Assembly (NCBI RefSeq): GCF_038397725.1
Contig: NZ_CP151634.1
Coordinates: 620,001 to 684,000, forward strand
DNA: 64,000 nucleotides
Reading direction: 5' to 3'
Origin: Microbacterium sp. LWO13-1.2
GTDB lineage: Bacteria; Actinomycetota; Actinomycetes; Actinomycetales; Microbacteriaceae
Part shown: in pieces, positions 21,812 through 49,295 of the stretch
Layout of the letters: the number at the start of each line of letters is the position of its first letter
Numbering within the stretch: position 1 is the first letter of the stretch
The notes under the pieces: model-generated
Seen by the model: the letters and a program-made list of their open reading frames with translations, nothing else
Told to the model about the DNA's origin: nothing
The model's database searches: none
Position numbers and translations under genes: made by a program

Positions 21812-21871
21812 TTTCCTGCAACGATCAGTGACGATCCGACTTCCGGATGCTGATTCGAAGGAGAGCCAGTG

Positions 21872-32857: not shown

Positions 32858-33874
32858 TCACGCGAAAGCGTCGGGGTACAGCGCCTGCGCGATCTGGCGG
32901 ACAACGGAGATGTTCCCGAGCGTGCCGGGGAATGTGTCTGCGGTGGAGATGGCGATCAGGCGACCGTCGCGAACCGCTGGCATGTCGGGGAACGTGGCCG
33001 TGAGGTACGCACGGGTGGCGGCCTCGTGCGCCGGATCCGTCACGGCGAACACGAGAGCGTCAGGCGATTCCGCCGCGAGCGATTCCGGGGTGATCTCTGC
33101 GGCGAAGAAGTCGCCGAACGCGGCATCCTCCGGGCTGAACACGTTGTCGGCGCCGGCCCGTCGAAGAATGTCGTACTCGATTCCCGCGCCGACCGCCGTC
33201 AGCGACGTTCCGTCGACGTAGATCTGCGCCACACGCAGCTTGTCGTCGACCTGCTCCACGGCGGCGTCGACCACGGCGAGGTCGGCCTTCGATTCCTCGA
33301 TGAGAGACTCCGCCTTGTCTTCGACGTCGAAGATCGTCCCGAGGTTCTCGAGGTCGATGAAGAGATCGTCGACCGTTCCTTCCATGCGTCGCTCGAAGCA
33401 TCCACCGGTGGCGACGTACGCGGCGACGCCGGCCTCCTGCAGCTGTTCGATGCTGGCGAAGCCCTGCTCGGCGGTGAACTCGTAGGTCGTCGGCGAGTAG
33501 ACGAAATCGGGTTCGACGGCGAGGAGCGCTTCGCGGTTCGGCGGCGAGTCCGCCCCGAGCACGGGGACATCGGCTGCCAGTGCGGCGACGTCGGCTGGAA
33601 GCGCCTGCGCTGTGGCCTGCGCCTGACCGACGAGCCGGTCGGCGAGCCCCAGGCGCAGCAGCAGCTCGGTCTGCGAGGGGTGCAGGCCGACCACGGCGGT
33701 CGGTGCCTCGGGCACCACGACAGTGCGGCCGCAGTTCTCGATCGTGACCGAGCCCGCCGATGAGGAGGGCGGCTGGGCGGAGGCGACTCCCGCCCCGCAT
33801 CCGGTCAGACCGAGGATGCTCAACCCTCCCAGTGCAGTCATCAGGATGCTGGCGGATCGCGTGCGGGGTTTCAT
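32858..33874 (-). CDS. Metallophore/siderophore ABC transporter substrate-binding lipoprotein
   Basis: 338 residues with a lipoprotein signal and lipobox LTGC near residue 26. The mature protein is a FecB/BtuF-type (class III) binding protein: TVVVPEAPTAVVGLHPSQTE, LLLRLGLADRLVGQA, EALLAVEPDFVYSP and LRRAGADNVFSPEDAAFGD are typical lobes joined by one rigid helix. It is the last gene of a five-gene operon in which every junction overlaps by 4 bases. Because that operon is divergent from the RiPP biosynthesis genes across a Fur/Zur-type box, it probably captures the metal-loaded RiPP product. Ligand unproven. Confidence 0.9.
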   Translation of the reverse strand: MKPRTRSASILMTALGGLSILGLTGCGAGVASAQPPSSSAGSVTIENCGRTVVVPEAPTAVVGLHPSQTELLLRLGLADRLVGQAQATAQALPADVAALAADVPVLGADSPPNREALLAVEPDFVYSPTTYEFTAEQGFASIEQLQEAGVAAYVATGGCFERRMEGTVDDLFIDLENLGTIFDVEDKAESLIEESKADLAVVDAAVEQVDDKLRVAQIYVDGTSLTAVGAGIEYDILRRAGADNVFSPEDAAFGDFFAAEITPESLAAESPDALVFAVTDPAHEAATRAYLTATFPDMPAVRDGRLIAISTADTFPGTLGNISVVRQIAQALYPDAFA

Positions 33875-34683
33875 TCGGTTCTCCTTGGTGATGAGGGCGG
33901 GGGGTTCCCGCCCGAGGGGGTGAGAGGGTGGAAAGTCATCGCCCGGGCGCCCGTGCCCTCTTCCACCGCGACGCGTGCCGTCACGCGGAACACGTCGCTC
34001 ACACGCGCCGGTGTGAGCACCACGTCGGGTCGCCCGAAGGCCACCAGGTTCCCGGCGTCGAGAACGGCGATGTCGTCGCAGAATGACGCCGCGATGTTCA
34101 GGTCGTGGAGAGCGGCGATGACGGTCTTGCCGAGACCGGTGACGACGCGCATCAGGTCGAGTTGATGAGAGATGTCGAGGTGGTTGGTGGGTTCGTCGAG
34201 CACGAGGATCTCGCCGTCCTGCGCGAGAGCTCGGGCCAGCATCACGCGCTGCCGCTGTCCGCCGGAGAGCTGACGCATCAGGCGATCTCCGAGATCGGCG
34301 ACGTCGGCGGCGCGCAGCGACTCGTCGACGATCCGCAGATCCTCCGGAGAGTCTCGCGTGAAGGGCGGCCGGTGCGGCGCGCGGCCGACGAGCACCGTCT
34401 CCCGCACTGTGAGATCGAAATCGGACGGCGCATCCTGTAGCATCACCGACACTGTCCGTGCGAGCACCCGAGGTGCGAGTTCTGCGACGTCATCGCCGTC
34501 GACGCAGACCCGGCCCCGGAGAGGCCGACGGCCGGTGAACAAGGTGCGCAGGAGGGTCGATTTGCCGCTGCCGTTCGGACCGACGAGTCCGACGATCCGG
34601 CCGCGGCCGATCGTCAGATCGATTCCGCGGAGTACGACGCGACCGCCGAGCGCGACGTCGACGCCTTCGAAGGAGATGGTCAT
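33871..34683 (-). CDS. Metallophore ABC transporter ATPase (FecE/BtuD-type)
   Basis: 270 residues. Walker A GLVGPNGSGKSTLLRTLF, Q-loop SVMLQDAPSDFDL, signature RQLSGGQRQRVMLARALAQD, Walker B EILVLDEPTNHLDISHQ and H-loop ALHDLNIAASF are intact. Overlaps the permease stop and the binding-protein start by 4 bases each. Confidence 0.94.
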   Translation of the reverse strand: MTISFEGVDVALGGRVVLRGIDLTIGRGRIVGLVGPNGSGKSTLLRTLFTGRRPLRGRVCVDGDDVAELAPRVLARTVSVMLQDAPSDFDLTVRETVLVGRAPHRPPFTRDSPEDLRIVDESLRAADVADLGDRLMRQLSGGQRQRVMLARALAQDGEILVLDEPTNHLDISHQLDLMRVVTGLGKTVIAALHDLNIAASFCDDIAVLDAGNLVAFGRPDVVLTPARVSDVFRVTARVAVEEGTGARAMTFHPLTPSGGNPPPSSPRRTE

Positions 34684-35780
34684 CTGTCGATTCCCGCTTT
34701 CTCGCCGCCCCGGCGCATCAGCCAGAGGAAGAACGGGGCCCCGACGAAGGCGGTGAGGATGCCGAGGGGGATCTCGGATGGAGCGGCGACCGTGCGCGCG
34801 AGCAGGTCGGCGACCATCAGGAAGAGTGTGCCGGCGAGCACGGTGATGGGGAGCATCCGCCGGTGATCGGAGCCGACGAAGATGCGCGCGACATGGGGGA
34901 TCACGAGCCCGACGAAACCGATGCCTCCGCTGACGGCGACGATCGCCCCGGTGAGGAGCGACGCGATGACGAGGAGCGCCCCGCGCAGTCGCGTCGTACG
35001 CACCCCGACGGCGAGCGCGGATTCATCGCCGGCGAGCAGTGCGTTCATCGGCCTGGCGAGACCGAACACGGCGACGGACGCGATCAGGAGAGCCACCGCC
35101 GGGATGAGAAGCGACGACATCGTCGCCGCTGACACGCTTCCCAGCAGGAAGAACATCACGCTCACGACGTTCTGAGCGTCTGTCGTGATCGTGAGATAGC
35201 TCGTGACCGCACTCAGCAGTGATCCCAGCGCCACACCGGCGAGGATCATCCTGGTCGGCGACAGCTCACCGCGGCGCCGTGCGAGAAGCGCCACCAGGAT
35301 GCAGGCGATCACGGCGCCGGCGAAGGCCGCGCCGCTCATCGTGAGTCCGGCGAACGCCGCCCCACCCGAGACGATCACGAGCACCGCTCCGACGCTCGCT
35401 CCCGAGGAGACGCCGAGGATGTACGGCTCGGCGAGCGGATTGCGAACGACGACCTGCATAATCGCCCCCGCGAGAGCGAGGCCGGCTCCGGAGAGCCCGG
35501 CGAGGAGCGCGCGCGGCAGCCGGAACTGCCACACCGCCTGGTCCTGCAGCGTCGACAGGCTGCCGTCCGACATCCACGGCATGTCGGCCACCAGATGACC
35601 GATCACGATCTTCGCGGCGTCGATCCCACTGACCTCGACCTGCCCCGTTGCTCCGGATACGACGAGCACGGCGAGAATCGACACGATCAGCGCAGAGATC
35701 GGGATCGCCAGGGAGAGCCTGCGCCGGCTTCCTCGTTCTCGGCCTTTCTTGTGGATGGTCGGCTGTGCCGCGCCGATCAT
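34680..35780 (-). CDS. Metallophore ABC transporter permease (FecCD/BtuC-type)
   Basis: 366 residues, about ten helices. Family motifs: RLPRALLAGLSGAGLALAGA, QVVVRNPLAEPYILGVSSGA, LAGVALGSLLSAVTSYL and GGIGFVGLVIPHVARIFVGS. Only one permease gene is present, so the transporter is likely a homodimer as in BtuC. The start overlaps the S9 peptidase stop by 4 bases. It imports an intact metal chelate across the membrane. Confidence 0.94.
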   Translation of the reverse strand: MIGAAQPTIHKKGRERGSRRRLSLAIPISALIVSILAVLVVSGATGQVEVSGIDAAKIVIGHLVADMPWMSDGSLSTLQDQAVWQFRLPRALLAGLSGAGLALAGAIMQVVVRNPLAEPYILGVSSGASVGAVLVIVSGGAAFAGLTMSGAAFAGAVIACILVALLARRRGELSPTRMILAGVALGSLLSAVTSYLTITTDAQNVVSVMFFLLGSVSAATMSSLLIPAVALLIASVAVFGLARPMNALLAGDESALAVGVRTTRLRGALLVIASLLTGAIVAVSGGIGFVGLVIPHVARIFVGSDHRRMLPITVLAGTLFLMVADLLARTVAAPSEIPLGILTAFVGAPFFLWLMRRGGEKAGIDR

Positions 35781-37486
35781 TCGCTGTGCTCCATCGTGAG
35801 GCGGGCGGCGAAGTCCAGCACGGTCAGTCCCAGTTCGTGGAGACTCGTCAGATCATTGGAACCGTGCCCCGCGGCCGGAGCTGTCCACATGCGCGCGGAG
35901 CCCCCCGCCCGCAGCAGCGCCTCCACGGTGCGCACGGTGTCCCGAGCGATGACGCGCGTGTCCTTCTCCAGCACGATTCCGAGAAACTCCGGGGTCGCGG
36001 ACCCACGCGGCAACGCCTCCGCCTGCGCGAGCGGTGAGATCCGTCGCACCCGCTCGCGCCCTTCCGGAGTGCCGTCATCGCCGAACTCCGACTTCCAGAG
36101 CCTTCCCAAAGGGTGTTCACCAAGGCCGAGGAGATCGAGCGGAGCTCCGGTCGTCACCACCCCGGCGCACAGGCCGGGATGCTCGAGCGCGCAGCTCGCG
36201 ACGATGACGCCGCCGAGCGATGCCCCCACCAGGACGAGCAGCTCGGGTCGGGTGATCCCCCGATCGACAAGGGCTCGTGCCACGGCGGCCAGATCTGCGA
36301 TCGTGCGGTGCTTGTTCGACCCGCTCCCGGCATCCCGCCACTGCACGCCGTGCTCGCCACCCCCTCGGAGCTGCGCTGTCGCGTACGCGCCGCCGTGTGC
36401 GAGCCATGCCAGGATCGTCGGCTCGAATGCGGGCAGGTACGCAACACCGAACCCGCCGTAGCAGGTGAGGATGAGGGGCCTCGGGCTGGAGGAATCCGGA
36501 TCGGACGTGACGTGCACCACGAGATCCGCTCCGTCATCGGTGCGGATCTCGTGCCGAACCGTGGTCGCCCCGGAGGGCGCCGGCGCCGGGCGTCGATCCA
36601 GGGTCGCGATCCTGTCGCACTCGACGATCTGCGGCGGAGTCAGTGGTCCTTCCACGGCGACGTGGAGTACTCCGGCGTCCACGCTGATCCCGGTCGCCGA
36701 CACGGCGTCGTGGCCGGCGGTCAGTTCTTGTGTGCACACGATCTGCCCGGCGCGGAGCGTGACGATGACGCTCCGCCCGCCCCGCACCATCAGCACGACG
36801 ACCTGCTCGCCCTGCACAGCGACGTCGATGATCTGCTCGGTGGAGTCCCATCTCCACCGGATGCCGCCGTCGATGTCGACGGCGTCCAGGCCCGCATCGC
36901 GCCAGACGAGGATGCCGTCTGCGAGGGGCATCGCCCGGAACAGCGCGGCGAACGTACCCAGGCAGGTGTCCGACGCGCGGTCGATGAGCACCGTGCCCCC
37001 GTCTGTCGCACGTCGAGCCAGCAGCCCGCCGCGACCGCCGCGGAAGAAACGTACGCGGGTGCCCTGGTCGGTGACGGTCGCCTCCCACTCGCCGCTCTCG
37101 ACGTCGAGGCTGACGATCTGGTCGTCCCTGCTCGCGACGACCTCGAGCCGCCGCGAATCCGCCTTCCAGAGGACCGTGTCGTAACGAAGACGGATGTCCG
37201 GATGCACGCGCATCTCTCCGGTATGCACGTCGATGATGGCGAGTACGGCGTTCTCGTCGGCAGCCGCGGCCCATTCGGCAGCGATCAGTCGACCGTCCGG
37301 CGACGGCGCGATCCGGTGGAGGTGCCCTTCGGGCTCAGTGACGCACCGCCCGTCGCTCCGGTACACACCGCGGCGGATCCGCCCCGCCTTGCGCCCGAGC
37401 GCGAATCCCGCGTTCGGAAGGCCGGGACGCCCGTACTGCTCCCCCTGCGAGAGCGCGGCCGAGAGCGAATCCGTGAGCGCGCTCAT
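35777..37486 (-). CDS. S9-family (prolyl oligopeptidase-like) serine peptidase
   Basis: 569 residues without signal peptide. The N-terminal part (1-300) is a degenerate beta-propeller, the C-terminal part (about 320-569) an alpha/beta hydrolase with ILTCYGGFGVAYLPAFEPTI, AQLRGGGEHGVQWRDAGSGS, the nucleophile elbow LVGASLGGVIVASCA (Ser near 423) and the catalytic His in PAAGHGSNDLTSLHE. Such enzymes cut or ligate short peptides after Pro or related residues. In a RiPP-uptake operon it could remove the leader, cut the imported metal-peptide to release metal, or macrocyclise. The 4-base overlaps with both neighbours argue for a function tied to import. Confidence 0.85.
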   Translation of the reverse strand: MSALTDSLSAALSQGEQYGRPGLPNAGFALGRKAGRIRRGVYRSDGRCVTEPEGHLHRIAPSPDGRLIAAEWAAAADENAVLAIIDVHTGEMRVHPDIRLRYDTVLWKADSRRLEVVASRDDQIVSLDVESGEWEATVTDQGTRVRFFRGGRGGLLARRATDGGTVLIDRASDTCLGTFAALFRAMPLADGILVWRDAGLDAVDIDGGIRWRWDSTEQIIDVAVQGEQVVVLMVRGGRSVIVTLRAGQIVCTQELTAGHDAVSATGISVDAGVLHVAVEGPLTPPQIVECDRIATLDRRPAPAPSGATTVRHEIRTDDGADLVVHVTSDPDSSSPRPLILTCYGGFGVAYLPAFEPTILAWLAHGGAYATAQLRGGGEHGVQWRDAGSGSNKHRTIADLAAVARALVDRGITRPELLVLVGASLGGVIVASCALEHPGLCAGVVTTGAPLDLLGLGEHPLGRLWKSEFGDDGTPEGRERVRRISPLAQAEALPRGSATPEFLGIVLEKDTRVIARDTVRTVEALLRAGGSARMWTAPAAGHGSNDLTSLHELGLTVLDFAARLTMEHSE

Positions 37487-38685
37487 CGGCCGACCAGGTC
37501 GTTCAGCGGTCGGTCGGATGCCGCCCAGAAAAGGTGTCCGCCCTCGTTCAGCGGCGTGGGGAACTCCACGATCTCGGTATCGCCGCCGCGGATGAGGAGG
37601 AGGCGGGAATCGCCACCGCTGGTCACCGCGATCGTGTCACCGGACGGGTCGAGAGCGATCGACCGGCGCTGCGCGGGCATGCCGTCGACGGAATCCCACG
37701 GCAGATGACCGGGACGCGGCGGGTGCGTCATCGCCGGGATCGGGAGGTGCTGCGCCACGCGATCGTCGCCCCTGTCGACGGTGACCACGGCATCGCCGTC
37801 GGGGTGGATGACCGCTACGGCAGCCGTTCCAGCGCCGAGCGCGAAGCGGAAGGCGAGACCCGACGGCAACGGCACCGAACGCGTGGCACCGGTGTCGAGA
37901 TCGATGTCGACGAAGGTGTTGGTCCACTGTGCCCAGGCGCCGGCCGCAGGAGGACCGCCTCGAACGATGCCCGTCGCATGCCCGCTGTCCGGGTCGAGCC
38001 GTAGGTAGTACGGCCTGCCGTCTCCCGGCCAGGGGATCACTCCGAGAGCGCGGGGCTCACCGCGATCGACGACGAATCGTTCGAGTCCGCGACCGGTCGC
38101 CACGGCCATGATCCCCGACTGCGGATGCACGACATCACCGTGACCGTCTGCCGCGAGGTCATCCAGGATCCGTCCCCGAAGCACCGGCACATGCGGGCCG
38201 ACTTCGAGGGCCGACCCCAGCGGCACCGCTTCGATCGCGCCGGGTTCGCGGTGGCGCAGCAGGATCGTCGGCTCCCCCGTGGTCTGATCCGCGGCGACGA
38301 CCACGCCGGGCTCACCGGTTCTCGCCCGGAAGCGCACGGAACTCTCGCGCACCAGGTCGACGACGGTGACGACATCGCTCCACGGAGCCTCATTCATCCC
38401 CATGCCCGAGGTGACGACCACGTGTCGACCGTCGTGGTCGCAGGCGATGTGCTCGGCGGGGATCGCGATCGGGATCCGCCGCACCGAGGAGTCGTCACCG
38501 ACCACGAGCGCGCCGTCGGCGTCATCCGCGAACGCCCAGCGACCGCTCGCGCCCTTCGGCAGCGCGAGGAATCCGGCGTGCTCGGCGAGCGTCGCCTCGA
38601 CGACGACACGCGGGAGCGAACCGTCGACCGCGTAAACGACATCTGCGCGGTAATCGGCGACCAGGAGAGGGTGCGAAGAGGGCAT
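37483..38685 (-). CDS. Beta-propeller-like protein of unknown function
   Basis: 400 residues, no signal peptide, no catalytic motif I can name. Repeated beta-rich blades are evident (LLVADYRADVVYAVDG, GRWAFADDADGALVVGDDSS, DGRHVVVTSGMGMN, VAVIHPDGDAVVTVDRGDD, DTIAVTSGGDSRLLLIRGGD), consistent with a six- or seven-bladed propeller. First gene of the importer operon; its ATG is 21 bases from the Fur/Zur-type palindrome. Possible roles are a partner of the S9 peptidase or a binding platform for the peptide product. Confidence 0.75.
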   Translation of the reverse strand: MPSSHPLLVADYRADVVYAVDGSLPRVVVEATLAEHAGFLALPKGASGRWAFADDADGALVVGDDSSVRRIPIAIPAEHIACDHDGRHVVVTSGMGMNEAPWSDVVTVVDLVRESSVRFRARTGEPGVVVAADQTTGEPTILLRHREPGAIEAVPLGSALEVGPHVPVLRGRILDDLAADGHGDVVHPQSGIMAVATGRGLERFVVDRGEPRALGVIPWPGDGRPYYLRLDPDSGHATGIVRGGPPAAGAWAQWTNTFVDIDLDTGATRSVPLPSGLAFRFALGAGTAAVAVIHPDGDAVVTVDRGDDRVAQHLPIPAMTHPPRPGHLPWDSVDGMPAQRRSIALDPSGDTIAVTSGGDSRLLLIRGGDTEIVEFPTPLNEGGHLFWAASDRPLNDLVGR

Positions 38686-38701
38686 GCCTGAAACATTAGT
38701 G

Positions 38702-38721
38702 GATATTGAGAATCATTATCA
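38702..38721. promoter_or_regulatory. Fur/Zur-type box in the divergent promoter of the RiPP locus
   Basis: TGAGAATCATTATCA (38707-38721) is a 7-1-7 inverted repeat with one mismatch. The overlapping 19-mer starting at 38702 matches the classical Fur consensus (GATAATGATAATCATTATC) at 17 of 19 positions. The minus-strand -10 element GATAAT (38715-38720) lies inside it. In actinobacteria iron control usually goes through DtxR/IdeR, and boxes of this shape are typical of Zur (zinc), so zinc control is the more likely reading. Confidence 0.75.
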
Positions 38722-38736
38722 TTTAGAGTCGAAGCC

Positions 38737-38775
38737 GTTCACCTCGTGAACCCGCTCGGCGAGACCGCCGAGCGG
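38737..38775 (+). other. Two hairpins in the 5' leader of the precursor-peptide mRNA
   Basis: GTTCAC-ctc-GTGAAC (38737-38751) is directly followed by CCGCTCGGC-gagacc-GCCGAGCGG (38752-38775), a perfect 9-base stem. They end 16 bases before the AAGGAG ribosome site of the precursor gene. They may stabilise the mRNA or modulate translation. Confidence 0.6.
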
Positions 38776-38799
38776 AATTCCCCACAGAAGGAGCAACTC

Positions 38800-38898
38800 A
38801 TGGACAAGCAGATCCTCTCCGAGATCGAAGAGACCGAGCAGCTGGCCCACCTCTCGGCGACGCACTCCAACGCGCTGGTCGAGAACCCCTTCGACTGA
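38800..38898 (+). CDS. RiPP precursor peptide (putative YcaO substrate)
   Basis: 32 residues, ATG 38800 with a strong AAGGAG 7 bases upstream. The N-terminal part MDKQILSEIEETEQL is acidic and helix-prone, like a leader read by a peptide-clamp domain. It is followed by AHLSATHSNALVENPFD. There is no Cys. The heterocyclisable residues Ser19, Thr21 and Ser23 alternate with Ala20 and His22, and His17 is nearby. YcaO/SagB action would give alternating oxazole/methyloxazole units beside imidazoles, a plausible metal-binding array. It lies first in the rightward operon, between a Fur/Zur-type box and an attenuator-like hairpin, directly upstream of the modification genes. The leader/core boundary is unknown. 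Confidence 0.8.
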   Translation: MDKQILSEIEETEQLAHLSATHSNALVENPFD

Positions 38899-38934
38899 TC
38901 ACCGTGCTGTCCCACGTCGTCTGACGTGACCACC

Positions 38935-38965
38935 CCCGGCCGGGCGCCACGCGCGTCCGGCCGGG
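38935..38965 (+). terminator. Attenuator-like hairpin between precursor and biosynthetic genes
   Basis: CCCGGCCGG (38935-38943) pairs perfectly with CCGGCCGGG (38957-38965), loop 13 bases, followed by CTATTAAGG. A smaller hairpin CACGTC-gtct-GACGTG precedes it (38913-38928). Partial termination here would give more precursor than enzyme message, as in many RiPP operons. Confidence 0.65.
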
Positions 38966-38983
38966 CTATTAAGGAAGAGTCGA

Positions 38984-39793
38984 ATGAGTCGAGAACGCCG
39001 GGTCATCCCCCTCGCCGGCCACGGGGCGCACCTCATCGCGAGCGATGACGGTCGAAGCGTCGTCCGGATGCGCACCGGTCGTTATGCCGTTCTGAGCGCG
39101 CAGCCCGAAGGCCTTGAGGATGCTCTCACCCGGGCGCCCGAGCGGGCTCGAGAGCTCCAGCGCGCCTACCTCGAACGCCTATCCGCGGAACTCGGTGCAC
39201 GAGACGCCGCCGACGACGCCACGAGGTGGCCCCCGCATCGCCGCTCCGTCTGCCTGCTCGGCGAAGGCCGAGTCCTCGATGATCTGACGATCGCGCTCGA
39301 CGCGTGGGGCATCCGCACGACCCGACTGGGAGCCGACGAAGGTCCACCCCGCGATGCGACTCTCGTGCTCGCCTACGCCGACCACGGTGGCGAACGCTCC
39401 CGCTGGACGCGGTTCGATGCGCTGCCCGGCCGCGGCGTCGCCTGGCTCCGCGTGTACCGCGAGGGAGAGTGCGTGCTCATCGACCCCCTCGCCATGACAG
39501 CAGGCGACGCCACGTCGGAGCAGGTCTCTCGACGGCGGGTCGCCGCGAGCCTCGTTCCGGACGAGGTCGATGCCTGGCAGCGCAACGTCGCCGACGCCGG
39601 CACGCCCATCGACGCCGCAGCCTCAGCTCTCGCCGTCGCCCGGGTCTTGCAGATCCTGCTTGCCTGGGCGCAGGGCAGTGATGCCCTCGAACCGTTCCGC
39701 CGCACCCTGTGGAAGCTCGTCCCGGCGACCGGGACCGTGACCGAGCACACCGTCGTCGCTTACCCCGAAGCACCCCGATCGGTCCTGGCGTGA
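38984..39793 (+). CDS. RiPP leader-binding / ThiF-like cyclodehydratase partner
   Basis: 269 residues. The N-terminal 90 residues have the outline of a peptide-clamp winged helix (RVIPLAGHGAHLIASDDGRS, AVLSAQPEGLEDALTRAPER). A Rossmann-like segment starts at RRSVCLLGEGRVLDDLTIAL, matching the ThiF/E1-like scaffold of TOMM partner proteins, which present the precursor to YcaO. The ATP/zinc sites of true E1 enzymes are not evident, as expected for the scaffold type. GGAAG lies 8 bases before the ATG. The stop overlaps the CocE-like gene's GTG by 4 bases. The assignment rests on context plus weak sequence features. Confidence 0.68.
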   Translation: MSRERRVIPLAGHGAHLIASDDGRSVVRMRTGRYAVLSAQPEGLEDALTRAPERARELQRAYLERLSAELGARDAADDATRWPPHRRSVCLLGEGRVLDDLTIALDAWGIRTTRLGADEGPPRDATLVLAYADHGGERSRWTRFDALPGRGVAWLRVYREGECVLIDPLAMTAGDATSEQVSRRRVAASLVPDEVDAWQRNVADAGTPIDAAASALAVARVLQILLAWAQGSDALEPFRRTLWKLVPATGTVTEHTVVAYPEAPRSVLA

Positions 39794-40767
39794 CGCCGCC
39801 CCGGGGCGCGCACCCCCACCATTGCCTGGCCGAGGACGGCACAACGCTGCGCGGGTGGCGCTGGGATCCGCCCTCGATCCGCGGCGTCGTCCTCATCCGG
39901 ACGCCCTACGGCGCCTGGCGCCATGCCGAGGCGGCGCTCGCCTGGACTCGTCGAGGTTTCCGCTGCATCATCCAGGACGTCCGCGGCCGGCATTCCTCCG
40001 ACGGCTCGTGGAACCCCTACCTCACCGAACGACGCGACGGCTGCGCGACGGCGGATGCTGTCGCCGCCGAGAACCCCGGGCTCCCCCTCGTCTTCTCGGG
40101 CGGATCGTACGCCGCGCACACCGCCCTCGAAGCAGCGCACTCCGGGCACGCCCAGGCCCTCGCGCTCCAGGTCCCGGCGCTCGGCCTCGCCGAGACCGCG
40201 TGGGACGAGCAGGGCGAGCCGCAGCTCTGGCACCGCATCGGCTGGTGGCATCAGCATGCGCGCGGACCGCGCTCCCTGCCCGCACTCTCCGCCGCCGAAC
40301 TCGCCGACCGGGTCGAACGCGCGGCCACGATCGGCGCGCAGAAGGCCGCCGAGGAATGGGGCTGGCCCGACGGCACTCTCGCCGGATGGCGGCGACTCTG
40401 GTCGGCCTCGCGCCTCGATCTGCGCCACGAATACGGCTCTGTCTCTGTTCCTCTGATGCTGGTCCGCGGTGACGACGACTTCTTCTTCTCGGATGCCGGG
40501 CTCCTGGCGAGTGCATGGCAAGGACCGGTGCACGTCGTCGATGGGCCATGGGGGCATCGCCTGAGCGCCGGCATCACCGACGAAACGCTCCGCGCTCGGC
40601 TGAAGGCGGCCGGCGGGCTCGGCGGTGTTCTCGACGCGTGGCTGGCGAAGAACGGACTCGTCGCCGGCGACATCGCGGATGCCGTCATCGATCTCCCCGA
40701 CAGTCGACGATCGCGTTCGGTGTTCGACACCGATCTCGGCGACTGGCGCCACGAAAGGACACCATGA
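39790..40767 (+). CDS. CocE/NonD-family (X-Pro dipeptidyl-peptidase S15-like) hydrolase
   Basis: 325 residues from a GTG overlapping the previous stop. Typical S15/CocE motifs: VVLIRTPYGAWRHAEAALAW, RGFRCIIQDVRGRHSSDGSW, the nucleophile elbow FSGGSYAAHTALEA (Ser near 104), the acid in RGDDDFFFSDAG and the His in DGPWGHRLSAG. No signal peptide. It sits between the leader-binding protein and YcaO with 4-base overlaps on both sides, so it is part of product maturation. Leader removal, trimming before a proline or hydrolysis of a protecting acyl group are possible. Confidence 0.85.
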   Translation: MTPPRGAHPHHCLAEDGTTLRGWRWDPPSIRGVVLIRTPYGAWRHAEAALAWTRRGFRCIIQDVRGRHSSDGSWNPYLTERRDGCATADAVAAENPGLPLVFSGGSYAAHTALEAAHSGHAQALALQVPALGLAETAWDEQGEPQLWHRIGWWHQHARGPRSLPALSAAELADRVERAATIGAQKAAEEWGWPDGTLAGWRRLWSASRLDLRHEYGSVSVPLMLVRGDDDFFFSDAGLLASAWQGPVHVVDGPWGHRLSAGITDETLRARLKAAGGLGGVLDAWLAKNGLVAGDIADAVIDLPDSRRSRSVFDTDLGDWRHERTP

Positions 40768-42164
40768 TGCCGCGCATTGACGCACCACCGCCACCGACAG
40801 CGCTGCTGTCTGCAGAGTCGCTCGTCGACGCCGAATGCGGAATCATCCGTTCGGTGCGCGCCGTGGAGCACCCCGAGGGCGCCCCGCACGCCTATCTCGC
40901 GTTGACCGCGTCGGTGTCGGATGCGCGGCGCCTGGGTGAATGGCCGGCCGACCGGGTCTCGCTCGGCACATCATTCGGCGATGTCGCCCAGGCGCGCATC
41001 GCCGCCATCGGCGAAGGCGTCGAGCGGTACTGCGGAAACTGGCTTCCCGCCGACCTCCCCCCGACGGAGCTGCGCGTGGGCACCTCGGCCGACCTGACCG
41101 CCGACGGTCTGCCCTGCGCGACAGCCGAAGATCTCCCCCGGTTCTCGTCCTGGCAGCTCGCGCGACCGAGGTTTCCTTATGAGCCCCTGCGGGCGGATAC
41201 ACCGACGCTCTGGTCCCGGTGCGTGGATCTCGATGGCGAGCCCCTGTGGCTCCCGGCATCCCTCGTGTACCTGAACTGGCGGCAGTCGAGGTTCCGTTCG
41301 CTCCCGCGCACGCACCATCTCAACTACGCCGGCATCGCCACCGGGGCGGGGGTCGACGATGCACGCGACCGGGGTGTGCTCGAGATCATCGAACGCGACG
41401 CCCTCGAAGTGTGGTGGCACCTGGACGGCCCCACGTTCGGCATCGATCCGGCGACCGTTCCCGGTCTCGTGGACGACCTCCGCGGAAGTGACCTGCAGGT
41501 GTGGCTGGTGGCGATGCCCTCCGAGTTCGCGCCGGCCGTCGCCGCGTTGGTCTACGACGAGAAGAGAGGAATCTACGCTGCGGGGTTCTCGTCGGCTCTC
41601 GATCCCGAGCGGGCGGCCCGCAAGGCCGTGCTGGAAGCGGTGCACACCTGGATCTACACACAGGGATGCACGAGCGCCGACGGCTGGGTCTTCCGCGCGG
41701 TCGCCGAGGGTCTGATGGCGAAGGGACTCACCCTCGACTTCCGACCGGACGCCGACTACGCCGCAGCCGCCGGGCCGCAGTTCGAGAAGGTCATCGATCT
41801 GGGCGCGCACGTGCAGGTCTGGCTCGACCCGGCGACCCATCAGGAGGCGCGCCGATTCCGATCGCCGAGTCTCGGCATCCGTCCACTGACTGCTCTGCGA
41901 CCGGCGACGATGGCCGACGTCTACGAGCGGCTTCGACTTCGTGGCCATCGAGTCCTGACCCGTGACCTCACCACCTCGGATGTGCGTCGGACCGCTCTGC
42001 GCGTCGTGCGCACCTTCATCACCGGGCTCGTCCCCAATGCTCCTGCCGCGTTCTCCTACCTGGGGATGCCGCGGTTCCGCGAGGCCGCGGAAGAGCGCGG
42101 CTGGCGCTCGTCGTGGACCGGAGGGCCCGACGATTTCACGCTCGTTCCCCCTCCCCACATGTGA
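40764..42164 (+). CDS. YcaO cyclodehydratase
   Basis: 466 residues; ATG 40764, or the next codon ATG. The YcaO ATP-binding signatures are present: RIAAIGEGVERYCGNW (about 79-94), RGVLEIIERDALEVWW (about 203-218) and RAARKAVLEAVHTW (about 283-296). THHLNYAGIATGAGVDDARD is the glycine-rich loop. The chain ends in VPPPHM, a proline-rich C-terminus of the kind required by azoline-forming YcaO enzymes. It should convert Ser/Thr of the precursor into (methyl)oxazolines using ATP, with the ThiF-like protein as partner. 4-base overlap with the CocE-like gene. The next gene starts 7 bases after the stop. Confidence 0.93.
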   Translation: MMPRIDAPPPPTALLSAESLVDAECGIIRSVRAVEHPEGAPHAYLALTASVSDARRLGEWPADRVSLGTSFGDVAQARIAAIGEGVERYCGNWLPADLPPTELRVGTSADLTADGLPCATAEDLPRFSSWQLARPRFPYEPLRADTPTLWSRCVDLDGEPLWLPASLVYLNWRQSRFRSLPRTHHLNYAGIATGAGVDDARDRGVLEIIERDALEVWWHLDGPTFGIDPATVPGLVDDLRGSDLQVWLVAMPSEFAPAVAALVYDEKRGIYAAGFSSALDPERAARKAVLEAVHTWIYTQGCTSADGWVFRAVAEGLMAKGLTLDFRPDADYAAAAGPQFEKVIDLGAHVQVWLDPATHQEARRFRSPSLGIRPLTALRPATMADVYERLRLRGHRVLTRDLTTSDVRRTALRVVRTFITGLVPNAPAAFSYLGMPRFREAAEERGWRSSWTGGPDDFTLVPPPHM

Positions 42165-42171
42165 GCGCCCG

Positions 42172-43206
42172 ATGCACATCTCTCCACACGGAACGATGAA
42201 CGGCGATCACCTGCCCCCGCCGCTCGACGCGGCGTTCTCCGGCGCCGTCCCCGGAACGGCGCTGCCTCCTGGCCCGCGCATGAACGCCTGGGCTGCGGCC
42301 GGCGCCGTGCAGGAGCAGGTTCACGGACCACTCGGAGGTTTGCTCCCGGCGCTCTGGCGTGCCGGTGAGCTCCATCGGAACACCGACGGAACACCCACGA
42401 AGATTCGTCGGCGCCCGGTACCGTCGGCCGGCGCCTGCTACGGCGTGCAGACCCACATCGTTTCGGCCGATGGCACGCGGCGCATCTTCGACACGGAGAG
42501 CGTCACGCTGTGGCGACGAGACGCGGCGCGCGATCTCGCGGCCGGGTGGCCGGTCGGCACGGACACGAATGCGAACGATCATCTGGTGTTCACCGTGCTG
42601 CCAGGGCGCACCTTCGGCCGCTACCGTCACCGCGCCTGGCCGCTGTGGATCGCTGATGTCGCCTACGCCGTCGCGGCGGTGAGATTTCTGCGGACCGGTC
42701 GGGCCGGCGCCGAACACTTCGGTCCATCCACGCGCCTGCGCGCCCTTCTCGGTGTGCCTCCTGCCGCCGATACCGAGGCCTGGATGCGCCGCGGGCTCGT
42801 TCCGGAGATTCCGCTCGCGGCCGTGGAGCTCAGTGGTGAGCCCGAGGTGCATCCGGAGCGTGTGCGGGCGCTGCGGGCGCGCCGTTCCCCCTCTCTCATT
42901 GAGTTCCTCGAGCGCGCCGAGCTCGCACCGCCACCCGCTGCTGTCGAGACTGTGGCACGAGCATCCGGCCAGACATGGGTGCGGGGCGCATCTTCGGTGC
43001 GGTCGTGGTCGATCCCGCGCACCGCGTCGACATCAGAGATCGGGACCGCCCTGTGGAGCGCCCACCTCTCCGCCGCCGGCCAGTGCTACACGGCCGCGCT
43101 CTCCGGGACTCTCCGCACCCGTCCTGTCTCAGGATTCACCCCCGTTCGCGATCGCTGGATCCTGCACGCCCTCGCCACCATCCCGACCTCCGGAGGCCAC
43201 CCATGA
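42172..43206 (+). CDS. SagB-type FMN-dependent azoline dehydrogenase
   Basis: 344 residues from ATG 42172. The nitroreductase-fold signature KIRRRPVPSAGACYGVQTHI (about 77-96) matches the RRPSPSAGALYP motif of SagB/McbC proteins. HRAWPLWIADVAYAVAAV corresponds to the helix near the flavin, and a second, degenerate half follows (TWVRGASSVRSWSIPRTAST). These enzymes oxidise azolines to aromatic azoles. The stop overlaps the ABC transporter start. Confidence 0.85.
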   Translation: MHISPHGTMNGDHLPPPLDAAFSGAVPGTALPPGPRMNAWAAAGAVQEQVHGPLGGLLPALWRAGELHRNTDGTPTKIRRRPVPSAGACYGVQTHIVSADGTRRIFDTESVTLWRRDAARDLAAGWPVGTDTNANDHLVFTVLPGRTFGRYRHRAWPLWIADVAYAVAAVRFLRTGRAGAEHFGPSTRLRALLGVPPAADTEAWMRRGLVPEIPLAAVELSGEPEVHPERVRALRARRSPSLIEFLERAELAPPPAAVETVARASGQTWVRGASSVRSWSIPRTASTSEIGTALWSAHLSAAGQCYTAALSGTLRTRPVSGFTPVRDRWILHALATIPTSGGHP

Positions 43207-44867
43207 TGATCGTGCCCGAACTGTGGCGAGAAGCCCGCGCCTTCCCGCGTGAGCTCACGATGAGCGTCGTCCTGCTCCTGCTCGTCTTCGGCACTCACCT
43301 GCTGCAGGCCTGGGCGCTCGCCTGGTCGCTGGCCGCATTCGTCGACGGCGATATGACCGATGCTCTTGTCGGAATCGGTGCGATCCTCGGCATCGGAGTG
43401 TCGCGAATCCTGCTGTCGCTCGCTCAGGCGAGTGCCGCCGCCGCGCTCGGCGGAAGAGTGCGCGAGGGGCTGCGCCGGCGAGCCGTCACCGCCGCGCTCG
43501 ACCCCGCGCGCCTGCACGATGCTTCGCTGCGTGATGGCTCGGTCCAGGCGACGCTCGGGGATGGGATCGACGGCACCGATGCCTACGTCTCGAGGTACAT
43601 CCCCGCCGTCGTGCAACTCGCCGTCGGCAGTCTTGTCGCCGTCGTCCTACTGGGGTCGATATCACCGGTCGCCGCGCTCTGCGTGGGGGTGGGAGTGCTC
43701 CTGGCAATCGTCGGTCCCCTGGCATGGAAGCGGATGCTCGCGCGGCGCGGCTTCGAGCACTGGGACAGTTACGAGGCGCTCGGCGGCGACATGCTGGAAT
43801 CGCTCCGGGGCATGGCGACGCTGCGGGTGCTGGGCGATGTCGCTGGAACCCGGGCGCTGCTGCACTCGAGGTCGGAGGCGCTGCGCCGCGCGACGGAGCG
43901 CGTGATGCGTTCGTCTTTGGCCGAGACCGCCGTGACCGACGTCGCCGTCCAGGCGGGATATGTCTCGGCCGCCTTCGTCGCCGTCATCGATGTCGTGACG
44001 GGCGCGCCGCCCCGCGTCGAGGTGTACGCGATTCTGCTCCTCTCGTCCGAGGTGTTCCGCCCCGTGCGTGAGCTCTCGCGGCACTGGCACGCCGGGTTCC
44101 TCGGTTTGACCGCGGTGCCGGGTCTCGCCGCGCTCGGTGCCTTCCGCATTCCCGAGGCCGGCACCGAGGCGGGCACCGCAGCCGGTACTGAGGCGATCCG
44201 CGACGCCTCGACCCCTTCTGCCGGCGGCGAGGTGTTGCGGGTCTCGGGCCTCACCTATCGATACCCCGGTGCGTCTGAAGACGTCCTCCGTGGTGTCGAT
44301 CTCCGCGCGGAGAAGGGCACCGTGCACGCGATCGTCGGGGCATCCGGATCCGGAAAGTCGACGCTGTTCGACCTCCTCCTCGGGTTCCTCACGCCGACAG
44401 CGGGCACCATCGAGATCGACGGTCGCGCTCTCCGCGCGGCCGACATCGCCGTCGTCTCGCAGCGCCCCGTGCTCTTCGCCGGGACGATCCGCGAGAACGT
44501 CGACCTCTTCGGAGCCGACGACGTCGATGTCGAAGCCGCGTGCGCAGCCGCAGGCATCCTGGATGAGATCCGAGCGATTCCGGGAGGATTCGACGCGGCC
44601 GTGAGCGAAGCCGGAACGAGCTTGTCAGGCGGGCAGCGCCAACGGCTCGCCCTCGCCCGTGCGCTTCTCGCGCGCCGGCCGGTGCTCCTCGTCGATGAAC
44701 CGACGAGCGCGCTCGATGACCGCGGCGCGCTGACCGTCGCCGACACCCTGGAACGGGTCGCCGCGGAGCGCATCGTCATCATGATCAGCCACCGGCCTGA
44801 GGCGCTCGAGCGCGTGACCGACGTGCGGCTTCTCGATCAGGGCGTCCTCGTCAAGGCGGCATCATGA
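43203..44867 (+). CDS. ABC exporter half-transporter, membrane domain plus ATPase (1)
   Basis: 554 residues: six-helix exporter domain (1-320) and ATPase (340-554). Walker A IVGASGSGKSTLFDLLL (about 379), signature TSLSGGQRQRLALARALL, Walker B VLLVDEPTSALDD and H-loop MISHRPEAL are intact. An odd low-complexity linker (EAGTEAGTAAGTEA) joins the domains. Overall layout resembles CydD-like transporters. With the following gene it forms a heterodimeric exporter, probably for the RiPP product. Confidence 0.9.
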   Translation: MMIVPELWREARAFPRELTMSVVLLLLVFGTHLLQAWALAWSLAAFVDGDMTDALVGIGAILGIGVSRILLSLAQASAAAALGGRVREGLRRRAVTAALDPARLHDASLRDGSVQATLGDGIDGTDAYVSRYIPAVVQLAVGSLVAVVLLGSISPVAALCVGVGVLLAIVGPLAWKRMLARRGFEHWDSYEALGGDMLESLRGMATLRVLGDVAGTRALLHSRSEALRRATERVMRSSLAETAVTDVAVQAGYVSAAFVAVIDVVTGAPPRVEVYAILLLSSEVFRPVRELSRHWHAGFLGLTAVPGLAALGAFRIPEAGTEAGTAAGTEAIRDASTPSAGGEVLRVSGLTYRYPGASEDVLRGVDLRAEKGTVHAIVGASGSGKSTLFDLLLGFLTPTAGTIEIDGRALRAADIAVVSQRPVLFAGTIRENVDLFGADDVDVEAACAAAGILDEIRAIPGGFDAAVSEAGTSLSGGQRQRLALARALLARRPVLLVDEPTSALDDRGALTVADTLERVAAERIVIMISHRPEALERVTDVRLLDQGVLVKAAS

Positions 44868-46555
44868 CCGAGGCCACGACCGCGACCGTGTTCGCACGCC
44901 TGCTCCCGCCGCTGAGACCGGAGTGGCGGGGGATCATCTGGAGCTACCTGATCGGAACGGCGAGCACCCTCGCACTGACCGCGATCGCAGTCCTCGCCGC
45001 ACTCGGCGTCGGACGCGCGGTCGTGCACGGCGATTGGCCGCCCGCCGCGTGGTGGGTCAGCCTCTCGGCACTCGTGCTGTTGCGCGCGATCCTCACCTGG
45101 CGGGAGATGGATGTCTCCCACGCGCTCGCCTACCGGGTGCTCGCACGCCTGCGGGTCACCCTCTTCGACGCATACTCGCGCAGTGTTCCCGGTCGCAGGC
45201 GGGAGCACTCCGGCCGTGCGGCCGCCGTGGTGATGACCGATATCGAGAAGCTCGAGTTCTTCTACGCGCACACGCTTGCGCAGATCGGCGCATCCGTCAC
45301 GCTCTTCCTGCTGTCCATGATCGGTGCAGCGGTGATCATGCCGGCGGCCGCCCTGGTCGTGCTCTTCGGTGGCGCCGTCGTCGCCCTCACTGCGCTTCTC
45401 GGGGCTGCGCCCGCGCGACGGATCGGTGCGCAGGAGCAGCGGGAGCGCGAGGACCAGTCGGAGAAGCTCGTCGACGCTCTCGGTGCGATGCGGGAGATCC
45501 TCGCGTACGGACTGCAGGACAGGATCGTACGGGAGGCCGTGGACGGCACCCGACGCGCGGCGCGCACCTCACGACGGCGCGCTCTGATCACCGAAGCCGT
45601 CAACGGCACGCGCGAGCTCATCCTGACCGCGGTCGTGATCAGCATCATCCTGCTCGCACTCGTCACGTCCGGTCCCGGCGGGATCGGAGCGCAGGGAGGC
45701 GGGGTGGCCGCGCTGCTTCCCGCCCTCGTCACGCTGTCCGTCGCCGGGGTGGCCGCGATCGCCGAGGCCAGCCACACCGTCACGGAACTCCATCCCCTCG
45801 CGGCGAGCGCACGGCGCGTCGGCGCGGCGATCTCTCGCCCGGCGGTGGTGGCCGATGTCGCCGATCCGATCGACCTCCCCCAAGGCCCGCTCGGCGTTCG
45901 CTTCGACGACGTCTCGTTCTCGTACGACGATCAGACTCGGGCGCTGCACAGATGGTCGATGGAGATCGCGCCGAGGGAGCACGTCGGCCTCGCCGGAGCA
46001 TCCGGCGCCGGCAAGAGCACGGTCATCGCGTTGGCCGCGCGGCTCTGGGATCCGGAGCACGGCACCATCGCACTGGTGGACGACGCAGGCAGGGTCTACC
46101 CACTCGATGCCATCGCGGAAGAAGACCTCCGCACCGCGGTCGCCGTGGTCGAGCAGGATGCCCGCCTGTTCCATGGCACCGTGCGTGAGAACCTCCTGCG
46201 CGGAGCATCGCCTCGTGACGATGGCGCCCTCCACGCTGTGCTCAAGCGTGTCGGCGCCGACACCTGGATCACGCTCGATGATCAGATCGGCGAACACGGC
46301 GTCCGACTCTCAGGAGGTCAACGGGCCCGGCTGGCGCTGGCCCGCGCCCTCGTGCGGGAGCCGCGGGTGCTCATCGTCGACGAGATCACCGCGAGTCTCG
46401 ACCCGGCGACCGAGCGCCACATCTCCGACGTGCTCGCGGGCTTCGACGGCACGGTGGTCGCCGCCTCGCATCGCCGGGAGACACTCGAACGCCTCGATCG
46501 CGTGATCCGCATCGCGCCCGTCCGAGTACCTGCGACAGTGATCGGCGAACGCTGA
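44864..46555 (+). CDS. ABC exporter half-transporter, membrane domain plus ATPase (2)
   Basis: 563 residues with a six-helix membrane domain (1-330) and ATPase. Walker A LAGASGAGKSTVIALAA (about 378), signature VRLSGGQRARLALARALV and Walker B VLIVDEITASLDP. The Walker B glutamate is followed by I-T rather than P-T, and the H-loop is ASHRRETL, so it should be competent. 4-base overlap with the partner gene; last gene of the RiPP operon. A GGCGAACG/CGTTCGCC stem spans its stop (46544-46575) and may be the terminator. Confidence 0.9.
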   Translation: MTEATTATVFARLLPPLRPEWRGIIWSYLIGTASTLALTAIAVLAALGVGRAVVHGDWPPAAWWVSLSALVLLRAILTWREMDVSHALAYRVLARLRVTLFDAYSRSVPGRRREHSGRAAAVVMTDIEKLEFFYAHTLAQIGASVTLFLLSMIGAAVIMPAAALVVLFGGAVVALTALLGAAPARRIGAQEQREREDQSEKLVDALGAMREILAYGLQDRIVREAVDGTRRAARTSRRRALITEAVNGTRELILTAVVISIILLALVTSGPGGIGAQGGGVAALLPALVTLSVAGVAAIAEASHTVTELHPLAASARRVGAAISRPAVVADVADPIDLPQGPLGVRFDDVSFSYDDQTRALHRWSMEIAPREHVGLAGASGAGKSTVIALAARLWDPEHGTIALVDDAGRVYPLDAIAEEDLRTAVAVVEQDARLFHGTVRENLLRGASPRDDGALHAVLKRVGADTWITLDDQIGEHGVRLSGGQRARLALARALVREPRVLIVDEITASLDPATERHISDVLAGFDGTVVAASHRRETLERLDRVIRIAPVRVPATVIGER

Positions 46556-46595: not shown

Positions 46596-47198
46596 TCAGG
46601 CCGACCGCATCCGCTCCCACTGCTCGCGGGTCAGGAACGCCAGCTGACCGGTCTTATCGGGAAGCTCGACCTCTGGGCCGAAGGTGAATCCCGATCTCCG
46701 GATCCTGTCGATGGCGCGCTCGTTGCGGATGTCGGGTTCGACCACGATGCGATCGACCTCGGGACGCGCGAACAGGAACTCGGCGATCACGCCCCCGACC
46801 CGCGCGGTGTAACCGGGAACCCGCTCCCCTCGACCACCGAGGAGGAAGTGGATGCCCGCGTCACCGGGTTGCACGTCGTAGACCTCGCCGAGCGGGTCGT
46901 GCTCGGGCTCGTAGGTCTGGAGCAGCACGATCGGCACCCCATCACGCCGCACGAGGAACGCGTGGTGACTGGGCAGCCCGTCGACGAAGAGGTACAGATC
47001 ACGCAGGTCCTCGCGGGACAGCTCGGCCAGACCCCAGAACCGGGAATCGGGGCGAGTCACCCATTCGTGGATCACGTCGAGATCGGCCACCGGGTCGAGC
47101 ACCGTGAAGGTGATGCTCCCCAGCACCGGGGAATCCGTGGTGTAGACGGTGGTGCCGGCCGGGCCGGACGCCAGCCGGGCGCTTCGTGTGGCGGTCAT
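46596..47198 (-). CDS. GNAT acyltransferase of the siderophore (AlcB/IucB-like) type
   Basis: 200 residues from ATG 47198, overlapping the penicillin-acylase-like stop by 4 bases. Family features: SITFTVLDPVADLDVIHEWV, FWGLAELSREDLRDLY, QTYEPEHDPLGEVYDVQPGD, GIHFLLGG and the terminal VVEPDIRNERAIDRIRRSGF. Such enzymes acylate N-hydroxy-diamines in hydroxamate siderophore synthesis. It is the second enzyme of this type in the operon (the other is at 51074-51664). This suggests two different acyl groups or two products. Confidence 0.85.
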   Translation of the reverse strand: MTATRSARLASGPAGTTVYTTDSPVLGSITFTVLDPVADLDVIHEWVTRPDSRFWGLAELSREDLRDLYLFVDGLPSHHAFLVRRDGVPIVLLQTYEPEHDPLGEVYDVQPGDAGIHFLLGGRGERVPGYTARVGGVIAEFLFARPEVDRIVVEPDIRNERAIDRIRRSGFTFGPEVELPDKTGQLAFLTREQWERMRSA

Positions 47199-49291: not shown

Positions 49292-49295
49292 CCCG

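Follow-up and report, generated by a model that had tools for sequence, protein, structure and literature searches.

A candidate Zur-repressed, zincophore-like streptamidine (ami) system in Microbacterium, with recurrent receiver-only strains

The divergent ami locus

The subject of this study is the ami locus of Microbacterium sp. LWO13-1.2, a gene cluster for a ribosomally synthesized and post-translationally modified peptide (RiPP), and its relatives in other genomes, among them strains that hold the importer side without the synthesis genes (receiver-only strains). The locus occupies positions 32858–46555 of a 64,000-nucleotide stretch (contig NZ_CP151634.1, positions 620,001–684,000; the window) in a 4.0-Mb single-contig genome. 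It consists of two compact operons that diverge from a 114-bp intergenic stretch containing one near-perfect palindrome, TGATAATGATTCTCA. Adjacent open reading frames (ORFs) of both operons almost abut or share a few bases, except for an 85-bp gap 3' of the precursor gene; the start codons of several ORFs, amiC, amiE, and amiT1 among them, are inferred. The features are as follows, with ABC standing for ATP-binding cassette.

32858–33874, minus strand: FecB-type substrate-binding lipoprotein of the importer, putative receiver module (Peripla_BP_2, PF01497, 74 bits; orthologues in receiver-only strains)
33871–34683, minus strand: FecE/BtuD-type ABC ATPase of the importer (PF00005, 108 bits)
34680–35780, minus strand: FecCD/BtuC-type permease, single copy here (PF01032, 300.7 bits)
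35777–37486, minus strand: S9 prolyl-oligopeptidase-type peptidase (PF00326, 100.5 bits)
37483–38685, minus strand: conserved protein of 400 aa, from its position a probable AmiX (family alignment A2)
38704–38724, no strand: putative Zur-type operator, 21-bp palindrome common to both operons (15-bp core 38707–38721)
38800–38898, plus strand: amiA, 32-residue streptamidine-family precursor MDKQILSEIEETEQLA-HLSATH-SNALVENPFD (NF040714)
38984–39793, plus strand: amiB homologue, conserved beside amiA across loci
39790–40767, plus strand: amiC, CocE/S15-type hydrolase (PF02129, 53.4 bits; start from the overlap with amiB)
40764–42164, plus strand: amiD, YcaO with C-terminus PPPHM (PF02624, 139.9 bits; alignment A1; start from the overlap with amiC)
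42172–43206, plus strand: amiE, diverged SagB-type flavin dehydrogenase (family profile A3 against PDB; deduced start)
43203–44867, plus strand: amiT1, exporter-type ABC half-transporter, also in receiver-only strains (deduced start)
44864–46555, plus strand: amiT2, ABC half-transporter, also in receiver-only strains

A preliminary description made from the DNA letters had given this layout, a pair of compact operons diverging from a single palindrome, and the genes sit at the coordinates stated there. Domain and family models match the 32-residue peptide, CocE-like hydrolase, and YcaO it had named, Pfam models match its FecB-type lipoprotein, BtuC-type permease, ATPase, and S9 peptidase, and its SagB-like dehydrogenase is borne out by a family profile that matches SagB-type nitroreductases in PDB. 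This profile (A3) finds SagB-type/CyaGox chains at E 3e-5 and a putative nitroreductase at E 1e-9; AmiE has no match in Pfam (searched with the part from 42220 only) or NCBIfam (searched also with the whole ORF). The closest NCBIfam models are F420-0, corrinoid, and siderophore importers for the ATPase, all under their cut-offs, and CydD and CydC for T1 and T2, also under cut-off. Neither the AmiB-like nor the 400-aa protein matches a Pfam or NCBIfam model, with a PDB profile search of the latter returning weak profilin matches only, so that the labels ThiF-like and beta-propeller-like of the preliminary description gained no support from these searches. No signal peptide was seen by eye on the S9 peptidase.

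The precursor scores 66.7 bits against the NCBIfam model NF040714, 'streptamidine family RiPP' (cut-off 40), its core HLSATH is identical to the published streptamidine core, and, as a motif A precursor, it has the ALV motif. The genes amiB, amiC, amiD, amiE, amiT1, and amiT2 all lie beside amiA, as does the Fec-type importer of the family (amiF1–F4), here with a single permease gene instead of a pair. Judged by its sequence, the locus is a streptamidine (ami) cluster. The published cluster, from Streptomyces albidoflavus J1074, comprises amiA–E, amiT1–T2, and a Fec-type importer, and its product derives from the core HLSATH (PMC8442711). The window shares with it the precursor family, the core, amiA–E, amiT1–T2, the Fec-type importer, and probably amiX, whereas its importer is divergent with one permease (two there), an S9 peptidase is added, and one Zur-type box is shared by both operons.

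The preliminary description had found the gene combination undescribed and its product an azole peptide. Neither claim stands: the NF040714 match and the published cluster rule out a new RiPP class, and the product reported for the same core is a six-membered amidine in which Ser and Thr are unmodified (PMC8442711). A linear azol(in)e peptide was likewise rejected, as the core, with one Ser and one Thr, is not Cys/Ser/Thr-rich. The same paper modelled AmiB on TruD as a RiPP recognition element plus an E1-like part and reported that deletion of the importer or the dehydrogenase left no streptamidine production, and deletion of amiT1–T2 less of it (PMC8442711). Its authors detected no antibacterial or antifungal activity, suggested signalling, and in 2021 had already proposed metal import from the importer, leaving the function open (PMC8442711). 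No mention of Zur was seen in the main text of that paper, and zinc only among the tested ions, and titles and abstract beginnings of open-licence literature yielded no link between the streptamidine family and Zur. The class and the metal-import idea are already known; the Zur-type regulation is what is new.

The Zur-type operator and its candidate regulator

An AmiD profile (alignment A1) found 207 relatives in genome contigs. The best 80 of the 207, 20 loci from further genomes, and the window make up 101 loci (L numbers; genomes carry G numbers), some loci of both sets coming from the same genome. Four loci (L051, L062, L094, and L098) have no usable amiA, and the other 97 give 90 distinct amiA upstream regions. 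The FecCD permease is present in 88 of the 90 distinct loci; of the other two, L049 breaks off at the end of its contig, where FecE and FecB are seen, and the contig of L084 is 7.4 kb long. The preliminary description would have been contradicted by related YcaO clusters that consistently lack the importer, and this neighbourhood search instead ties a dedicated uptake system, its substrate putative, to synthesis, as for a zincophore.

Three arrangements occur: 40 loci are divergent with a shared promoter, in 42 the importer lies upstream with the same orientation (Streptomyces type), and in 6 the importer is detached downstream. The S9 peptidase follows this division, with 38/40 divergent, 0/42 Streptomyces-type, and 4/6 detached loci carrying it. 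Our FecB profile missed the Streptomyces-type FecB, the single example examined being a Peripla_BP_2 protein. L042 and L050 are minimal divergent loci in which profiles find the permeases and ATPase and no FecB, AmiB, AmiE, S9, or T1/T2. In L071, a second Fec-type importer copy with its own Zur-type box lies beside the ami cluster, ~8.2 kb downstream of amiA.

The window palindrome (38707–38721) is an exact match to TGANAATGATTNTCA, which recurs in the window only once, at 3 mismatches. Expectation-maximisation searches of the 97 amiA upstream regions from 60 random 21-mer starts converged in the best four runs on aAATGAAAATcATTTTCATTt, which occurs in 97/97 regions, 71–107 bp before the start codon. 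This motif has the same shape as the Zur box defined by chromatin immunoprecipitation in S. coelicolor, tGaNNatSatNNtCa, and as the motif at znuA genes of 17 actinobacteria, taaTGaNAANNNTTNtCANta (PMC5472717). The motif was trained on amiA regions, and the published box, the importer promoters, and the motif-B precursors served as independent tests. At up to 1 mismatch the published box is found in 70 of 90 distinct amiA regions versus 56 of the 8770 remaining 200-bp tiles from these loci; it is exact in 40/90 and within 2 mismatches in 86/90. Reversed and permuted boxes are found in 0/90 amiA regions. Iron control was tried and rejected, an IdeR/DmdR-type box (up to 4 mismatches) occurring in 0/90 amiA regions and nowhere in the window.

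At the importer promoters, the matrix finds a second box in 41/42 Streptomyces-type loci; in L119, the one miss, the sequence reaches no more than 2 kb upstream. A further 60 box sites were listed, and 39 of them fall at the AmiX/importer promoter of Streptomyces-type loci, 4–5.5 kb upstream of amiA. A box is also present at the detached importer in 5/6 loci. The box therefore moves with the importer. Eight Streptomyces-type loci (L034, L035, L102, L103, L108, L111, L124, and L133) have a further Zur-type box (18.9 bits) outside the cluster, ~6.2–6.6 kb upstream of amiA. The more distant precursors of the motif-B type (NF040715), which were not in the matrix training, occur in 7 of 394 genomes, and all seven have a box within 220 bp, six at 37–42 bp and one at 194 bp before the match. 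In six wider motif-B loci, the score of the box is equalled by 5 of the 469 remaining tiles; the published pattern has 2–3 mismatches at these sites or misses them.

Within 1 mismatch, TGATAATGATTCTCA has one other place in the 4.0-Mb genome, just upstream of a ZnuA-family gene (PF01297, 183 bits). Two FUR-family genes are present in the host. One, Zur-like, lies ~4.8 kb from the ZnuA-family gene, which is followed by ABC ATPase and ABC-3 permease genes. Among solved structures its protein scores 131 bits with 3mwm, which we take to be S. coelicolor Zur, and 118 bits with FurB (2o03), a wide margin over the next match, a Fur and the first that is not of Zur type (54). The second FUR-family protein is closest to PerR, and its gene lies beside a catalase gene. 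The genome hence encodes a Zur-like protein and has a Zur-type operator at the ami promoter. A related pattern occurs at 12 places in ten genomes, 7 of them at ami loci. Of two others, one precedes a G229 gene of the ZnuA family (232 bits in Pfam; in NCBIfam 208.5 for MntC and 206.6 for AztC, both under cut-off), and one is at AztA/AztB in G074 (over NCBIfam cut-offs). The boxes of L141, L142, and L136, the last by an unassigned region, lie in G256 and G007 and mark candidate unrecognised Zur targets. The Fur/Zur-type palindrome and metal regulation of the preliminary description are in this way narrowed to a Zur-type box, and the two ami operons are very probably under Zur control.

Receiver-only loci

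Among 295 Microbacterium genomes searched with FecB, 21 have it at E ≤ 1e-60; AmiD, sought genome-wide in a subset of the 295, is absent genome-wide from 11 of these 21. Ten genomes were classed as full, namely G000, G002, and G007, which were seen whole, G538, G590, G628, and G645, as stretches reaching AmiE, G591, whose contig ends in AmiD, and G440 and G473, by AmiD presence only. At the 11 receiver loci, FecCD, FecE, FecB, T1, and T2 are the only tracked genes, accompanied by a Zur-type box scoring 19–33; searches there gave no AmiA–E, S9, or 400-aa protein, and two of the 11 also carry further T2-like genes. A twelfth receiver, L051 (G414:C1:4431416-4451415; probably Nocardiopsis), has an AmiA remnant broken by a stop, no AmiB–E, and short pieces of the S9 and 400-aa genes, whereas its importer and T1/T2 frames are open and its Zur box is present. 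T1/T2 are found in 12/12 receiver loci.

In a midpoint-rooted FecB tree of 58 rows, with the long-branched producers L049, L086, L087, and L096 of the first tree left out, the 12 receivers need at least five changes between producer and receiver, each required by branches with good support. Two receivers, L195 and L196, carry the FecB proteins nearest to that of the window. Their loci keep the window order on both sides and lack the window's 35.7–43.2 kb, along with 46.5–54.6 kb and other gaps; the T1/T2 side resumes at window 54.6 kb, and L200 has a matching flank on the other side. The repeated absence of the synthesis genes is most simply explained by loss, a direction that is putative under a midpoint root.

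This distribution suggests a producer module of AmiA–E, S9, and AmiX and a receiver module of importer, T1/T2, and Zur box. S9 and AmiX would then sort with synthesis and T1/T2 with the importer, contrary to their operon positions. The idea that the S9 peptidase opens the imported peptide, which came from its co-transcription with the importer, was weakened by its absence from the 42 Streptomyces-type loci and from 11 of the 12 receiver loci, with the short piece in L051 the only trace in the twelfth. A search of open-licence literature for cheating in the streptamidine family found nothing.

Several neighbouring features were recorded alongside. Adjoining the ami cluster, window positions 46596–51077 hold an Acetyltransf_8 gene and a penicillin-amidase gene, whose listed ORFs overlap, together with the gene of an IucA/IucC-type synthetase that has a FhuF domain; these are probably part of a cluster for an NRPS-independent siderophore (NIS) next to the zinc-type cluster. 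The same stretch is absent from L195 and L196. Positions 21869–26227 encode a GH101 endo-alpha-N-acetylgalactosaminidase with NPCBM domains, a type that acts on mucin-type O-glycans. None of three proteins tried gave a PADLOC defence match.

A zincophore-like reading and its rivals

On balance, we think it probable that the locus encodes a Zur-repressed, metallophore-type system for zinc starvation with recurrent receiver-only strains. With zinc plentiful, Zn-Zur would repress both operons, and zinc starvation would release both. AmiB, AmiD, AmiE, and the hydrolase, probably with the S9 peptidase, would convert AmiA to an amidine-containing peptide with two histidines; the core histidines are nearly invariant across distinct segments (H6 in 50/50, H1 in 48/50, with the search pattern limiting position 6 to H or N). 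The peptide would exit the cell, and the FecB/FecCD/FecE importer would take up again the peptide or its metal complex. T1/T2 would serve secretion together with recycling or uptake, and not synthesis alone, because they stay with the importer where synthesis is absent. The peptide would act as a public good, with receiver-only strains holding the receiver module without the producer module.

Siderophores are public goods whose synthesis can repeatedly be missing while uptake is kept, and the retention of uptake and a zinc-responsive switch without synthesis would resemble that pattern. Methanobactin, the analogy drawn in the preliminary description, is a ribosomal peptide metallophore for copper made by other enzymes, and [S,S]-ethylenediaminedisuccinic acid ([S,S]-EDDS) of Amycolatopsis japonicum, unlike the ami product, is not a RiPP. 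Earlier work has matched metallophore clusters with a metal through their regulatory sites, and the [S,S]-EDDS biosynthesis genes were found via Zur sites (cited in PMC12161575). Coelibactin of S. coelicolor, a Zur-repressed zincophore, also has a Zur box at a metallophore-type cluster (PMC5472717), but is a putative non-ribosomal peptide (PMC3430247) while the ami product is ribosomal. The public-good pattern and this precedent together lead us, with moderate confidence, to take the ami system as zincophore-like and zinc acquisition as its most likely job, although zinc carriage would conflict with published binding tests.

Several observations weigh against this reading, the strongest being that purified streptamidine was reported to bind none of Fe, Co, Cu, Mg, Mn, Ni, and Zn (PMC8442711). 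Of the earlier proposal that the cell makes, exports, and re-imports a metal chelator, the logic is upheld by the linked importer and Zur-type box, and the metal binding is contradicted by that result. The YcaO mutant was also reported to show no phenotype under metal starvation, which redundancy with ZnuABC could hide, and a pure uptake role does not predict that importer deletion abolishes production (PMC8442711). On the regulatory side, 20/90 regions miss the published box at up to 1 mismatch and 4/90 at up to 2, the detached importer of L131 has no box scoring above 13, and the host's Zur-like protein falls under all NCBIfam cut-offs. The ZnuA-family proteins fall under every NCBIfam cut-off as well, and for that of G229 MntC is slightly ahead of AztC, so that its metal is not fixed. 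Three places of the related pattern have no evident zinc link (L136; L141, at a major facilitator superfamily gene; and L142, at an ABC ATPase gene), and in G421, among the ten genomes, no place was found.

The half-transporters add further difficulties. Across 46 loci, the distances of T1 follow those of AmiD (r 0.97) more closely than those of FecB (r 0.75), AmiD and FecB themselves correlating at r 0.73, and in L042 and L050 importer genes occur without T1/T2, which are therefore not tied to the importer alone. Seven receivers form a clade with more divergent T1/T2 (409–467 profile bits versus 619–714 in the other five), and this clade may import another compound. The role of T1/T2 is ambiguous: they accompany the importer in every receiver, yet their distances follow AmiD.

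Four other explanations were considered. The peptide might be a zinc-starvation signal, a re-imported pheromone reporting zinc scarcity on which receiver-only strains eavesdrop; we regard this as unlikely, since no sensor gene lies among the eleven tracked components, to which the survey was confined, the importer belongs to the FecB/BtuC type for metal chelates, and the core has its two nearly invariant histidines, although the published lack of metal binding, the authors' own suggestion of signalling (PMC8442711), and the importer and box kept by receivers would all fit it. A metallophore for another metal (Fe, Cu, or Co), with Zur control as a secondary input, could account for an importer that resembles Fec/Btu systems and for the NIS siderophore synthetase gene ~2.7 kb away. 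The conserved operator across the examined loci is nonetheless the Zur box, and the IdeR/DmdR box is missing from amiA regions and window alike, which makes this alternative improbable.

An antagonistic peptide, with receivers as immune non-producers and T1/T2 as an immunity exporter, is the least credible of the four; it would explain T1/T2 in all the receiver loci, but the importer is kept too and would admit the toxin, and the published work detected no antibacterial or antifungal activity (PMC8442711). The receiver pattern itself could have arisen by gain, the producer module being a cassette repeatedly inserted into pre-existing Zur-controlled importer loci. The producer part is indeed what varies at an otherwise similar locus, and the correlation between FecB and AmiD distances is lower (r 0.73). 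Because receivers nest inside producer FecB clades of the midpoint-rooted tree, with L195 and L196 sister to the window, and L051 retains a broken AmiA with short AmiX and S9 pieces, we judge gain improbable to much the same degree as a role for another metal.

The zincophore-like reading has a bolder form, which we hold only tentatively and consider rather doubtful: ami would be a widespread Zur-controlled ribosomal zincophore with recurrent pirates, and streptamidine the remnant of a longer or more oxidised peptide that binds zinc and is cleaved once re-imported. Such a remnant would explain the loss of streptamidine on importer deletion, an essential dehydrogenase for an unoxidised product, and the absence of metal binding. 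An active form that is longer or more oxidised would be compatible with an essential importer and dehydrogenase and with a binding test that used mature streptamidine; candidate forms longer than HLSATH extend up to the 16-residue HLSATHSNALVENPFD.

For the family as a whole, the conserved Zur box points to zinc starvation as the condition under which producers should be grown and to zinc as the first metal to test, and the receiver-only strains would constitute a natural bioassay. In the open-licence literature searched, titles and abstract beginnings describe no ribosomal zincophore; if zinc carriage is true, the ami product would be one.

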